Assembly: GCA_947258845.1 (NCBI GenBank) | Contig: CAMYJZ010000003.1 | Location: 1 to 58,014, forward strand | DNA from: an uncultured Ectothiorhodospiraceae bacterium | GTDB taxonomy: Bacteria > Pseudomonadota > Gammaproteobacteria > UBA9214 | DNA: 58,014 nt | Direction of reading: 5' to 3' | Shown: positions 2,551 through 56,528 of the stretch, piece by piece | Layout of the letters: every line of letters begins with the position of its first letter | Numbering within the stretch: the first letter of the stretch is position 1 | Notes under the pieces: model-generated | Database searches by the model: none | What the model was told of the DNA's origin: nothing | What the model saw: only the letters and a program-made list of their open reading frames with translations | Program-made: the position numbers and the translations under genes

Positions 2551-2780
2551 TCACCGCAGAGGCGCGGAGGGCGCAGAGTAAAAATCTAGTTAAAGAAGCA
2601 CTGTTTAATTCGAGTATCACGTCATAGCGAGCGTAGCGAAGCAATCTCCCAACAGTTATCTCAATGGTTTGTAGATTGCTTCGTCACTTTGTTTCTCGCA
2701 ATGACGAATTAATCAGGGTTTCCTTAATCTTGCCGAGTTTTCATCAGTATTGCTCTGCGTTCTCCGCGCCTCCGCGGTGA
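2551..2780. repeat. Inverted-repeat element, copy 1 (CCGCAGAG family), with a second inverted repeat nested inside
   Basis: The left arm (2551-2578, begins TCACCGCAGAGGCGCGGAG) and the right arm (2753-2780, ends CTCCGCGGTGA) are inverted copies of 28 bases matching at about 25. The 174-base interior is AT-richer. It contains a second, unrelated inverted repeat listed separately. The element fills the gap between dapD and the ArsC-family gene: its right end is 6 bases beyond the dapD stop and its left end 22 bases before the next start. In a read-through transcript it would form a long hairpin. Three other family members are in this window. Confidence 0.85.
2620..2706. repeat. Nested inverted repeat of the CGTCATNGCGAG...AGCAATCT type
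   Basis: The left arm (2620-2649) begins CGTCATAGCGAGCGTAGCGA. The right arm (2673-2706), read on the other strand, begins CGTCATTGCGAG and ends GACGAAGCAATCT. The arms pair over most of their length; the right arm has six extra bases in the middle. Sequences of this type recur in many unrelated bacterial genomes as short dispersed repeats (recalled, not searched). It lies entirely inside the CCGCAGAG-family element, so one repeat probably inserted into the other. Confidence 0.75.
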
Positions 2781-4969: not shown

Positions 4970-5857
4970 ATGAACACGGCCAAACAACCACGTCCGCTGC
5001 TTCCGGTGATCAGCCTGCTGTTCACGGCGACCCTGTGGGGGATCGTCTGGTATCCCCTGCGCCTGCTCGAGGCGCAGGGCCTGGCCGGGCTCTGGAGCGC
5101 CGCGATCAGCTATGGCGCGGCCCTGGTGGTCTGTGTCTGGGTCTTCGGGCGGGAGCGGCGGGCACTGCAGGAGAATCTCCTTTATCTCGCCCTGATGGGG
5201 CTCGCGGCCGGCTGGTGCAATGTCGCCTTCATCATGGCGGTGCTGGACGGCACCGTGGTGCGCGTGCTGCTGCTGTTTTACCTGTCCCCCTTCTGGGCGG
5301 TCTGTCTCGGCTGGTTGATGCTGGGCGAGCGCCTGGATGGCAAGTCCTTGCTGGTCTTCGTCATCGCCATCAGCGGGGCTGTGGTCATGCTCTGGGACGA
5401 GACCATCGGCATGCCCTGGCCGCGCAACGAGGCCGACTGGCTGGCGGTTTCCTCCGGGTTCGCCTTTGCACTGAGCAATGTCTATGTACGCAAGATGCAC
5501 CACGTGGGTGTCTGGCTCAAGTCGGTCAGTAGCTGGTTGGGTGTGGTGCTGGTGGCCGTTGCCTGGATAGCGTTCAGCCATGCCGGGCTGCCGGCAATCG
5601 GCAGTGGTGTATTGCTCGCGGCCATCGCCCTGGGTCTGTTCGGATTCCTGGTCATGACCGTCGCCGTCCAGTACGGCGTCTCGCACATGCCGGTGCACCG
5701 TTCGGCCGTTATCCTGCTGTTCGAACTGGTCGTCGGTGCGGTTTCCGCGCTGCTGTTGACGGACGAGGTGGTGCTTGTCCGCGAATGGGTCGGTGGCATC
5801 ATGATCGTCACGGCGGCCTACCTGGCGGCGCACATCCATGCGAGTGATACGGCCTGA
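4970..5857 (+). CDS. EamA/DMT-family membrane transporter
   Basis: A 295-residue inner-membrane protein with about ten hydrophobic helices in two EamA repeats. The first starts PVISLLFTATLWGIVWYPLR and the second near WLAVSSGFAFALSNVYVRK. The Pro/Trp-rich first helix and the conserved VLLLFYLSPFWAVCLGWLML segment are typical of drug/metabolite exporters; the substrate cannot be inferred. The ATG at 4970 (MNTAKQPRPLL) begins just before the first helix and is chosen over one 19 codons upstream. The stop overlaps the start of the VOC gene by one base (TGATG), so both are translated from one message. It is divergent from dapC. Confidence 0.88.
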   Translation: MNTAKQPRPLLPVISLLFTATLWGIVWYPLRLLEAQGLAGLWSAAISYGAALVVCVWVFGRERRALQENLLYLALMGLAAGWCNVAFIMAVLDGTVVRVLLLFYLSPFWAVCLGWLMLGERLDGKSLLVFVIAISGAVVMLWDETIGMPWPRNEADWLAVSSGFAFALSNVYVRKMHHVGVWLKSVSSWLGVVLVAVAWIAFSHAGLPAIGSGVLLAAIALGLFGFLVMTVAVQYGVSHMPVHRSAVILLFELVVGAVSALLLTDEVVLVREWVGGIMIVTAAYLAAHIHASDTA

Positions 5858-9780: not shown

Positions 9781-9833
9781 GGCGGGCTTGTTAAGCGGCC
9801 CATTCGGGGTTGCTTCGCAAAATTAAATTCACA

Positions 9834-9849
9834 CATGTGCCGGCACATG
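9834..9849. promoter_or_regulatory. Perfect 16-bp palindrome in the rpsB leader
   Basis: CATGTGCCGGCACATG is its own reverse complement and lies inside the predicted rpsB 5' leader, 90 bases before the start codon. As RNA it could also pair GGCAC (9842-9846) with GTGCC (9857-9861) in an alternative hairpin. In E. coli S2 represses its own operon through the rpsB leader; this region is in the right place for such a structure. That function is inferred. Confidence 0.4.
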
Positions 9850-9938
9850 CAGCAGGGTGCCTGGCGGCCTTTGATTACGGCTGCCGGGTTGCTGTCATGG
9901 GGTACATGGAAGCCTAACCCGAAATTGGAGAAATATTG

Positions 9939-47391: not shown

Positions 47392-47539
47392 TTCACCGCA
47401 GAGACGCAAAGGACGCAGAGAAAAGAAATAATTATTTCGAAAACATCGAATATTATTACCCTGCATATGCACGACATGCTTTGTCAACCAAATACTTTAT
47501 TTAAGTTTTTCTCTGCGTCCTTTGCGCCTCTGCGGTGAA
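47392..47539. repeat. Inverted-repeat element, copy 2 (CCGCAGAG family)
   Basis: The arms 47392-47424 (begins TTCACCGCAGAGACGCAAAG) and 47507-47539 are inverted copies over 33 bases with a single mismatch, the best-preserved pair in the window. The 82-base interior is AT-rich and has no open frame of note. It lies 62 bases after the thrC stop and 69 bases before the RpfE-like start. The stem could stop or slow transcription in either direction. Confidence 0.9.
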
Positions 47540-50481: not shown

Positions 50482-51580
50482 ATGCCAGATCTGAATCCCA
50501 TACGGACATTGATCAAAGACCTCGACGGGCGTGCCGCTGCCCTCAGGGGGTATCTTTGACCTCGATACCAAGAGTGAGCGTCTGACCGAGGTCGTTCGCG
50601 AACTGGAAGATCCCGCCATCTGGGACAACCCGGAACGCGCCCAGGAACTGGGGCGTGAGCGGGCGCGCCTGGAAGAGGTCGTGCTGACGCTGGGCACCAT
50701 GGCGCAGTCCCTGCAGGACGCCGCGGAGCTGCTGGAGATCGCGGCTGAGGAGGATGATGTGGCCAGCGTGGAGGAGATCGCGGCCGATGTCGCCAGACTG
50801 GAGGCTGAGATTGCACAGCTGGAGTTCCGCCGCATGTTCTCCGGGGAGATGGATGAGGCCAATGCCTTCCTCGATATCCAGTCCGGTTCCGGTGGCACCG
50901 AGGCCCAGGACTGGGCCGAGATGCTGCTGCGCATGTTCCTGCGCTGGGGCGAGCGCCACGGCTTCAAGGCCGAGCTGATCGAGGTGTCTGCGGGTGAAGT
51001 GGCCGGTATCAAGAGCGCCACGGTCAGGTTCGAGGGTGACTATGCCTTCGGCTGGCTGCGCACCGAGACCGGTGTCCACCGGCTGGTGAGGAAATCGCCG
51101 TTCGATTCCGGCAACCGCCGTCACACCTCGTTTGCCGCGGTGTTCGTATCGCCGGAGATCGCGGATGATTTCGAAATCGACATCAATCCGGCAGATCTGC
51201 GCATCGACGTCTACCGCGCCAGTGGTGCGGGCGGCCAGCACGTCAACCGCACGGAGTCGGCGGTGCGCATCACCCATGCCCCCAGCGGTATCGTGGTGCA
51301 GTGCCAGAACGACCGTTCCCAGCACAAGAACAAGGCCACCGCGATGAAGCAGCTCAAGTCCAAGCTCTATGAGCTGGAGATGCAGAAGCGCAGCGTGGAC
51401 CAGCAGGCCCTGGAGGAGACCAAGTCGGACATCGGCTGGGGCAGCCAGATCCGCTCCTACGTGCTGGACCAGTCACGTATCAAGGACCTGCGTACGGGTG
51501 TCGAGGTGGGCAATACCCAGGCGGTGCTTGACGGTGACCTCGACCAGTTCATCGAGGCCAGCCTGAAGAGCGGCCTGTAG
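50482..51580 (+). CDS. prfB: Peptide chain release factor 2, with programmed +1 frameshift
   Basis: RF2 reads UGA and UAA stops. Translation starts at ATG 50482 ([14 protein letters not shown]), runs 25 codons to an in-frame TGA at 50557-50559, and continues in the +1 frame from GAC at 50558 to 51580. The product is 365 residues, exactly the E. coli length. The frameshift cassette is complete (listed separately). The recognition tripeptide is in [15 protein letters not shown] (SPF), and the catalytic GGQ in [18 protein letters not shown]. It is followed by lysS, as in E. coli. Confidence 0.98.
50545..50560 (+). promoter_or_regulatory. RF2 autoregulatory frameshift site
   Basis: The internal Shine-Dalgarno AGGGGG (50545-50550) is three bases before the slippery CTT (50554-50556), which is followed by TGA and C (CTTTGAC). 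This is the canonical layout. When RF2 is scarce, ribosomes pause at UGA and shift +1, making more RF2. Confidence 0.97.
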
Positions 51581-51603
51581 CATGCAGTTGATCCGTGAAG
51601 ATC

Positions 51604-51782
51604 AACCGCAAAGACGCAAGGCGCGCAAAGAAATCATTAACAATAAACTCACCGCCGAGTCGCAGAGGGCGCTGAGAATAAAGACAATATATATCAGTAC
51701 TCTATTGTTTTCCTCTGCGTCCTCCGTGTCTCTGCGGTAATATTTTTTGTTTGCTTTGCGTACCTTGCGCCTTTGCGGTGAA
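51604..51782. repeat. Inverted-repeat element, copy 3 outer pair (CCGCAAAG variant)
   Basis: The outer arms 51604-51630 (begins AACCGCAAAGACGCAAGG) and 51754-51782 (ends CCTTTGCGGTGAA) are inverted copies with about four mismatches in 27. They are A-rich variants of the family. They enclose a second pair, listed separately. The element starts 24 bases after the prfB stop and ends 36 bases before the lysS start. Confidence 0.8.
51649..51740. repeat. Inverted-repeat element, copy 3 inner pair (CCGCAGAG variant)
   Basis: The inner arms 51649-51676 (begins TCACCGCCGAGTCGCAGAGG) and 51713-51740 (ends TGTCTCTGCGGTAA) pair at about 21 of 28 positions. They sit wholly inside the CCGCAAAG-type pair. 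The arrangement left-outer, left-inner, right-inner, right-outer suggests one family member inserted in another of a different subfamily. Confidence 0.78.
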
Positions 51783-51818
51783 CGCATATATATGTAGAGT
51801 CGGGAAAACAGACAGACC

Positions 51819-53306
51819 ATGACAGACCAGGACGAACATGCCCTTATAGCCCAGCGACGCGCCAAGCTGAATGCCCTGCGCGAGGCCGGCAATGCCTTCC
51901 CCAATGATTTTCGCCGTGATGCCATTGCCGGTGAGCTGCATGCCGAATACGATGACAGGGACAACGAGGCCCTGGAGGCCAGCCCGATCCGCGTCAAGGT
52001 GGCCGGGCGACTCATGGCCAAGCGTGTGATGGGCAAGGCCAGCTTTGCCCAGCTACAGGACATGTCCGGGCGTATCCAGCTGTTCCTGCAGCGCGATTCC
52101 CTGGCGGAAGGCGTCTACAAGGATTTCAAGACCTGGGACATCGGTGATATCGTCGGTGCCGAAGGGGTGCTGTTCAAGACCAGGACCGGCGAGTTGTCGG
52201 TGCGCACCGAGACGGTCCGGTTGCTGACCAAGTCGCTACGGCCCCTGCCGGAGAAGTTTCACGGCCTGGCTGACCAGGAGACCCGCTACCGGCAGCGCTA
52301 CGTGGACCTCATCATGAACGAGGTCTCGCGCAACACCTTCCGGATGCGCAGTCGCATCGTGCAGTACATTCGTCGCTACCTGAATGAACGTGACTACCTC
52401 GAGGTGGAGACCCCGATGATGCAGGCCATTCCGGGTGGTGCCACGGCGCGGCCGTTTTCCACCTACCACCACGCCCTGGACATGGACCTGTTCCTGCGCA
52501 TCGCCCCGGAGCTGTACCTCAAGCGCCTGGTGGTCGGCGGCTATGAACGGGTCTACGAGATCAACCGCAATTTCCGTAACGAGGGCCTGTCGACGCGCCA
52601 CAACCCCGAGTTCACCATGCTGGAGTTCTACCAGGCCTATGCCGATTACAATGACCTGATGGACCTCACCGAGGACCTGCTGGTCAGCATGGCAGCGGAC
52701 CTGCTGGGCACCACCACGATCGAGTGCCAGGGGGAGCAGTACGATTTCGGCCGGCCGTTCCGGCGCATGACCGTGCGTGATTCCATCCTGCATTTCAATC
52801 CGGACATCGCGGCAGCCGACATCGACGACCTCGACAGGGCGCACGGGCTTGCCGGACGGCTCGGCATTCCGCTGAAGGACAGCTTCGGCCTGGGCAAGGT
52901 GCAGATCGAGATCTTCGAGAAGACCGTGGAAGGCCGGCTGACCGACCCCACCTTTATTACCGCCTATCCGACCGAGGTGTCGCCGCTGGCACGACGCAGT
53001 GACGCGGACCCGTTTGTCACCGACCGCTTCGAGTTTTTCGTCGGCGGGCGCGAGATCGCCAACGGGTTTTCCGAGCTCAACGATGCCGAGGACCAGGCAG
53101 AGCGCTTCCGGATGCAGGTGGCGGAGAAGGAGGCCGGCGACATGGAGGCCATGCACTTCGACGCCGACTATATCCGCGCCCTGGAGCACGGGATGCCGCC
53201 GACGGCGGGCGAGGGCATCGGCATCGACCGGCTGGTAATGCTGTTTACCGATTCGCCCTCGATCCGGGATGTGCTGCTGTTTCCGCACCTGCGCCCGGAG
53301 GCGTAG
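51819..53306 (+). CDS. lysS: Lysyl-tRNA synthetase (class II)
   Basis: A 495-residue class II synthetase. The N-terminal OB-fold anticodon domain ([20 protein letters not shown]) is followed by the catalytic domain. Motif 2 is [20 protein letters not shown] and motif 3 [20 protein letters not shown]. It lies downstream of prfB, separated by copy 3 of the repeat family, and converges on mltD. Confidence 0.98.
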
Positions 53307-56348: not shown

Positions 56349-56371
56349 TTTACCGCAAAGACGCAAAGAAG
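56349..56371 (+). repeat. Solitary half-arm of the CCGCAAAG variant
   Basis: TTTACCGCAAAGACGCAAAG and a few further bases match the outer arm of copy 3, starting at the base after the rnhA stop. No inverted partner is present on the other side of copy 4, so it looks like the remnant of an outer element that lost its right end. Confidence 0.6.
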
Positions 56372-56390
56372 TAAAAGAAGTAAATAATTA

Positions 56391-56528
56391 TCACCGCAGA
56401 GACGCCGAGGACGCGGAGAACAACATTCTTAGAAATAAACCATACCCTGATATGTCGATTGCATAGGCATGAATTTGTTTTATTCTTTGGCATTCTTTCG
56501 CTCGGCGTTCTCTGCGCCTCTGCGGTGA
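56391..56528. repeat. Inverted-repeat element, copy 4 (CCGCAGAG family)
   Basis: The arms 56391-56418 (begins TCACCGCAGAGACGCCGAGG) and 56501-56528 (ends GCCTCTGCGGTGA) pair at about 24 of 28 positions around an 82-base AT-rich interior. It lies between rnhA and dnaQ and ends 27 bases before the dnaQ start. Confidence 0.87.

Follow-up and report, generated by a model that had tools for sequence, protein, structure and literature searches.

Copy 3, a layered hairpin repeat that probably belongs to a REPIN-like family partnered with the GxxExxY nuclease

We analysed a stretch of 58,014 nucleotides, here referred to as the window, which is contig C3 in the source assembly (2.35 Mb in 160 contigs) of the genome G000. 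The window contains four copies of an inverted repeat, and in the third of them one pair of facing arms is enclosed by another pair of a different type. Copy 3 probably belongs, as one of its layered forms, to a family of REPIN-like hairpin repeats of the chromosome that has the nuclease GxxExxY as partner. Within this family, neighbouring arms alternate in type and about half of the alignable loops are inverted between orthologous sites, and both are new observations.

Structure of copy 3 and of its relatives in the genome

Copy 3 is composed of four arms in mirror symmetry at 51605-51779, the outer pair belonging to type A (CGCAAAG) and the inner pair to type G (CGCRGAG), in the positions and the symmetric order that the first-pass annotation had described. 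The left outer arm (51605..51630, + strand, ACCGCAAAGACGCAAGGCGCGCAAAG) is of type A with three CGCAARG-like iterations, and is followed by an A+T-rich left spacer of 20 nt (51631..51650) and by the left inner arm of type G (51651..51676, + strand, ACCGCCGAGTCGCAGAGGGCGCTGAG). The central loop (51677..51712) is 36 nt long, which is short for the family, as the inner loops of four-arm copies measure 80-190 nt in 25 of 28 cases. On the right side are the inner arm of type G (51713..51738, − strand), a spacer of 15 nt (51739..51753) that can be aligned to the sister species having only the outer pair (G001), and the outer arm of type A (51754..51779, − strand). The open frame upstream (50531..51580, + strand) is presumably prfB-like, a name suggested by its place before lysS, and the one downstream (51819..53306, + strand), which we take to be lysS-like, anchors the orthologous gap. 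The remaining copies are a two-arm G-G form with a 174-nt loop (copy 1, 2553..2778), a two-arm form of mixed type with GAG-AAAG-GAG on both sides (copy 2, 47395..47536), and a form with three arms in the order A, G, loop, G (copy 4, 56352..56526). By eye, all four copies are situated between the main frames. With up to three mismatches, the arm motif has 14 matches in the window, while shuffled sequences gave a mean of 2.29 and at most 7. Only one match to Rfam at the gathering threshold was obtained over the whole window, a t44 RNA at 9812-9918.

The sequence from 51595 to 51795 folds into a single long hairpin of -83.8 kcal/mol (z -9.1), and none of 200 shuffles was as good. Such a long, stable hairpin could be an RNA-level element, a terminator or an mRNA stabiliser selected on the transcript, and copies 3 and 4 do begin 25 and 4 nt past the ends of the upstream frames. 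However, the transitions that distinguish facing arms are symmetric (60 versus 56), without any bias to G-U on one strand, and the loops flip and get replaced, so that we regard this explanation as highly improbable.

In the whole genome G000, the arm pattern has 261 matches at two or fewer mismatches, compared with 4 for the same pattern read backwards. An arm is about 26 nt long; it starts with TTC-ACCGC and continues with a word repeated three times, which is CGCAAAG in type A and CGCRGAG in type G, and an A-rich flank is found on both outer sides of the arms. The architecture was read in 75 stretches and the window, picked among the listed arm places, which are a part of the 261 sites. In this sample, the commonest clusters are two-arm G-G (n=14) and four-arm G A A G (n=10), followed by A G G A (n=3), two-arm A-A (n=3) and two-arm mixed-mixed (n=2); three-arm, five-arm and interleaved forms and both nesting orders are also present. 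Outer-only and inner-only elements, for which the first-pass annotation had suggested looking, are both represented here by the A-A and G-G clusters. Its contrary case, in which every copy has four arms, does not describe this genome, given 14 G-G, 3 A-A and 2 mixed-mixed clusters of two arms.

The layers are mostly concentric, and both arms of a layer are of the same type in 44 of 53 layers. Moreover, an arm is more similar to its partner in the layer (0.858) than to arms of its type in other copies (0.839; reached in 4 of 5000 shuffles). As for the loops, those of 34 copies out of 56 could be aligned with none of the rest, nine of the 34 being stacks of at least four arms, and there is one loose alignment group of 17 copies, within which many arm architectures occur.

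A second repeat, about 50-100 nt long by eye and with sequence resembling CGACTGCAGG-ATGCAGGAGGTAGAG, lies inside arms after ACCGCA in L036, L039, L043, L059, L075, L101, L231 and L271, and has the appearance of a separate mobile element with the arms as its target. Several contigs start within about 150 nt of arms (L056:1-26, L061:121-146, L091:48-73 and L102:41-66). The repeat family probably breaks the G000 assembly, and copies bearing a gene may be hidden by these breaks.

Alternating arm types and changes at orthologous gaps

We counted as neighbours those arms on the same strand whose starts are no more than 75 nt apart, excluding arms with more than three mismatches and arms of mixed type (six adjacent pairs in G000 involve a mixed arm). 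As a result, neighbouring arms in G000 are of different type in 55 pairs and of the same type in 2. Under random pairing, 20000 shuffles gave 28.7 on average and at most 45, and none reached 55. The corresponding ratios are 17:2 in G001, 26:0 in G002 and 19:0 in G003, although these genomes share orthologous copies and the counts are hence not independent; the stretches from G001-G003 were also chosen for holding arms, and sites stripped of all arms are undercounted there. The multiplication of one master copy does not explain the alternation, because most loops cannot be aligned with each other and the loose group of 17 is varied in architecture. The simplest explanation would be survivorship, with slippage or recombination removing neighbours that are identical.

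Left halves in the order G then A were also found in Chloroflexi and Anaerolineae assemblies (L236, L237 and L244), where arms occur in tandem as well; the scan took this order only and gives no measure of alternation in these assemblies. In Anaerolineae (L237:3774-3959, L244:1960-2097 and 5464-5667), these arms form tandem arrays that mostly alternate and contain CACAGAG as a third word.

The gap between the prfB-like and lysS-like genes gives the history of copy 3 itself. All four arms are present in G000 and in the sister species G002, and G001 has only the outer pair with a 28-nt loop, while the element is absent in a third sister species, G004, and in the remaining readable genomes of the host family. 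In flank identity to G000 at this gap, G002 is the nearest, then G001 and then G004. The inner layer was probably gained on the line leading to G000 and G002, and a precise loss of the inner layer in G001 is a possible alternative. The two subfamilies named by the first-pass annotation are borne out by the two arm types, by the two-arm copies of each and by the stepwise states at this gap; two subfamilies and a stepwise change are supported.

One explanation of these states takes up the central insertion put forward by the first-pass annotation: a G-type transposon-like repeat would have entered an older A-type repeat at its midpoint, with an ordinary terminal-inverted-repeat transposase moving both. 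Copy 3 fits it in several respects: the outer pair stands by itself in G001, its right spacer can be aligned, the order of flank identities favours a gain in the G000 and G002 line, and two-arm copies of both types exist. It fits the family as a whole much less well. The stretches read from G000-G004 contain 50 two-arm and 28 four-arm copies. Adding up both spacers of a four-arm copy gives 20-57 nt in 26 of the 28, but the loop of a two-arm copy has a median near 90 nt and is shorter than 60 nt in only 2 of 50, one of them being the counterpart of copy 3 in G001. Without its inner pair, a four-arm copy would mostly have a loop of 20-57 nt, rare among two-arm copies, and insertion into an ordinary copy is therefore unsupported as the general origin. 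We also looked for the duplicated target around the inner element that the first-pass annotation had anticipated. None was found over 28 inner junctions, where the longest direct repeat averaged 1.89 against a null of 2.20 (440 of 500 shuffles at least as high), and copy 3 has nothing beyond a 4-nt match in A+T-rich sequence; 77 outer junctions were likewise indistinguishable from shuffled partners. In addition, the 55:2 alternation would require each type to enter only the other. Insertion by such a transposase is in our judgement unlikely, with the gap of copy 3 as the place where the idea holds best.

Other gaps changed as well. At copy 4, G002 resembles G000, G004 has G-G only with a loop that cannot be aligned, and in G001 there is an A arm together with what looks by eye like a diverged CTTTGCG end. 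The loop of copy 2 is inverted relative to G001 and G002 and has the same orientation as in G004. Among 56 comparisons of a loop with that of a relative, several of which share the same own copy, 14 are inverted, 13 are in the same orientation, 18 are not alignable and 11 have no comparable loop; at a best score of at least 60, the numbers are 8 inverted and 9 same. Such flips, in 14 of the 27 alignable comparisons, together with extra arms on one side, interleaved G A loop G A forms and a G A segment that is doubled in L177 by eye, speak for growth driven by the host, in which stacks arise and flip through replication slippage, template switching and recombination between arms, without any dedicated enzyme, and GxxExxY is a passenger. 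But host-driven growth leaves unexplained both the dispersal to many places and the way in which arms vary with the GxxExxY protein between families and between phyla, and as the only process we hold it to be improbable. Layering and dispersal may have different causes, so the explanations are not mutually exclusive. The alternation, both nesting orders and the three-arm, five-arm and interleaved forms point to a rule-bound process that works layer by layer. The growth option of the first-pass annotation comes nearer to this process, although simple tandem growth does not fit.

GxxExxY genes and the arms around them

The candidate partner is a protein of the PD-(D/E)XK class, named GxxExxY by NCBIfam (TIGR04256) and PDDEXK_3 by Pfam (PF13366). 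In G001 and G004, PF13366 is located between genes that we take to be ribF and ileS, inside the arms of this very repeat family (L266 and L271). L266 (G001) and L265 (G004) are 97-100% identical over 3.3 kb and filed under two species, and probably represent a single contig assigned to two bins. The other, separate case is L271, where the right side has an inner A and an outer G arm and the left arm is interrupted by a further repeat. Six of the 12 arm-bearing genomes have GxxExxY; it was not found in G000, G002, G003, G184, G132 and G428. In G000, contig C5 ends inside ribF, where sisters carry GxxExxY adjacent, and since the contig stops there the absence may be an assembly gap; the assemblies of G002 and G003 are 64% complete. 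G184, which belongs to another family, has 90 exact arm matches in a genome of 1.8 Mb and no match to PF13366. After ribF, G009 and G011 retain one right-facing arm, and a fainter trace is visible by eye in G005; no such remnant is seen in G007 or G014. The short copies were considered as internal deletions of the gene-bearing form, and this was rejected: no relics of GxxExxY were found in the short copies that were read, the sole match being the known gene in L182. Neither excision nor fresh insertion of repeat units was seen.

We further looked at GxxExxY beyond the genus. In a draw of 398 genomes from the phylum of the window, PF13366 is present in 63, and 70 loci were read from this draw, leaving out partial matches and some weaker full-length ones. 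A locus was positive when facing repeats within 220 nt of the match scored above 26, the 99th percentile of 348 control windows drawn from the loci of the first batch. By this measure, 57 of the 70 loci are bracketed by inverted arms (26/30 in the first batch and 31/40 in the second). The sample is uneven, with one family (f50) supplying 56 of the 70 loci, 46 of them positive; outside this family 11 of 14 are positive. The arm-bearing genomes gave 9 positive loci out of 10, two of the ten being near-identical, and in an independent collection of viral contigs all three loci are bracketed (scores 47, 52 and 42, the control maximum being 29). GxxExxY loci at or under the threshold number 14 of 79.

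By eye, the bracketing repeats are mostly iterated 8-10-mers of differing words, which in distant lineages include CGCAGAG, CGCAAAG, CACGAAG and CACAGATGAA; the two words counted genome-wide are also present away from the gene. Arm similarity follows protein identity over 65 loci, omitting L266 as a near-copy of L265 (r 0.53, 0 of 2000 permutations). Pairs of GxxExxY genes in the same genome have dissimilar arms in 14 of 17 cases, and G243 has three kinds of arms; set aside in this count are the similar pairs (G004; L272/L274 in G426) and L361/L328 in G057, whose low score is by eye an orientation artefact. A count of cognate copies was not discriminating: the CACGAAG word has matches in 24 of 49 genomes, and in many of these the gene itself is flanked by a different word. 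There is also a weak link in the phylum draw, taken as the same 398 genomes, where PF13366 is found in 10 of 32 genomes with an exact arm match and in 53 of 366 others. The link between GxxExxY and the arms is correlative, and the covariation of arms and protein is also expected under plain co-inheritance.

The protein has a signature D-ExK-QxxxY, with D in 79/79, E in 78/79, K in 78/79, Q in 79/79 and Y in 78/79 sequences, which in our view resembles that of RecB/Cas4-type nucleases. Searches against PADLOC and PHROGs gave marginal matches only, including a marginal Cas4 profile, and searches of the PDB by sequence returned nothing in one case and a single match at E 0.15 in the other. The structure model, built from three sequences, is poor (pLDDT 52). 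With one protein as query, eight plasmid records were found, all predicted to be non-mobilizable. We found no publication on GxxExxY with inverted repeats, or on the arm words, in the open-licence literature.

The other enzyme to be weighed is a RAYT or another IS200/IS605 transposase, which would make the repeats an ordinary REPIN or MITE. There are 15 matches to PF01797 in G001-G004, and in G002 two RAYT-like genes (L280 and L299) adjoin arms of the family or sit between them. Yet PF01797 is absent from G000 and from G310. Thirteen of the 15 loci were read: 10 have no family arm within 700 nt and one has only a two-mismatch match inside the gene, while the repeats that face each other at L281, L289 and L296 differ in sequence from the family. 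Even at L280 and L299, other repeats are seen by eye between the gene and the arms, and these genes look like later insertions into loops. With no PF01797 in G000 and 11 of 13 loci in the genus lacking flanking arms, we set RAYT aside as the partner and think mobilisation by such a transposase very unlikely. The two RAYT-like genes of G002 (L280:1108-2112 and L299:1352-end), inside or beside family loops, carry by eye repeats of their own, and REP elements may use the hairpins as landing sites.

Comparison with known repeats and a proposed mechanism

REPINs are REP doublets that form hairpins and have RAYT as partner (PMC3116915 and PMC8049555). The present family has much in common with them: conserved ends in inverted orientation that flank a variable loop, a high copy number (the 261 arm sites) with higher-order clusters and few on plasmids, and a partner gene on the chromosome that is enclosed by such repeats. 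Membership fails on the partner, which here is a PD-(D/E)XK nuclease instead of an HUH tyrosine transposase. Furthermore, an arm is a threefold iterated 8-10-mer, non-palindromic by eye, and two arm types stack concentrically and alternate here, with loops that flip. In a REPIN, each end is a REP that has a GTAG or CGTC tag and a small palindrome.

Three other kinds of repeat can be compared. In bacterial interspersed mosaic elements (BIMEs), Y and Z motifs alternate. The REPs of these elements alternate in orientation, unlike the present arms, in which type alternates on each side of one hairpin; what the two have in common is that both are composite intergenic repeats with regular alternation (PMC2817692). 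The RU elements, enterobacterial MITE-like units, are similarly short, non-autonomous inverted-repeat units between genes (PMC2759123), but the present family shows neither a target duplication nor an internal-deletion relation to a gene-bearing form. It differs in the same way from a MITE of a terminal-inverted-repeat transposon, as neither a target site duplication at the junctions nor, in the short copies read, internal sequence common to an autonomous copy was seen.

For the preferred partnership with GxxExxY, we suggest the following mechanism. GxxExxY, a small PD-(D/E)XK nuclease, would recognise its own variety of arm and nick or cut hairpins there, and repair would copy two-arm units to new places. 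The dispersed units would then be the non-autonomous partners of GxxExxY, as REPINs are for RAYTs. Facing arms could recombine or allow template switching, and in this way layers could be gained, lost and exchanged and loops flipped. Where two arms of one type lie side by side, slippage or recombination would soon eliminate them, leaving only alternating stacks to persist. Under this mechanism, copy 3 would have begun as an A-type unit, and on the branch to G000 and G002 a G-type layer would have filled or replaced its centre.

More tentatively, and at somewhat less than even chances, GxxExxY with its iterated inverted arms may be an HUH-independent counterpart of the REPIN/RAYT system across phyla, in which each nuclease lineage has its own word and its own population of hairpins, and stacks of two words alternate as identical neighbours destroy each other. 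The repeats would in this way be tied to a named, apparently uncharacterised nuclease family, giving it a testable function, and this would explain why lineages differ in arm sequence. The alternation rule and the flipping of loops would be two countable signatures of the life of long hairpins in bacterial chromosomes.
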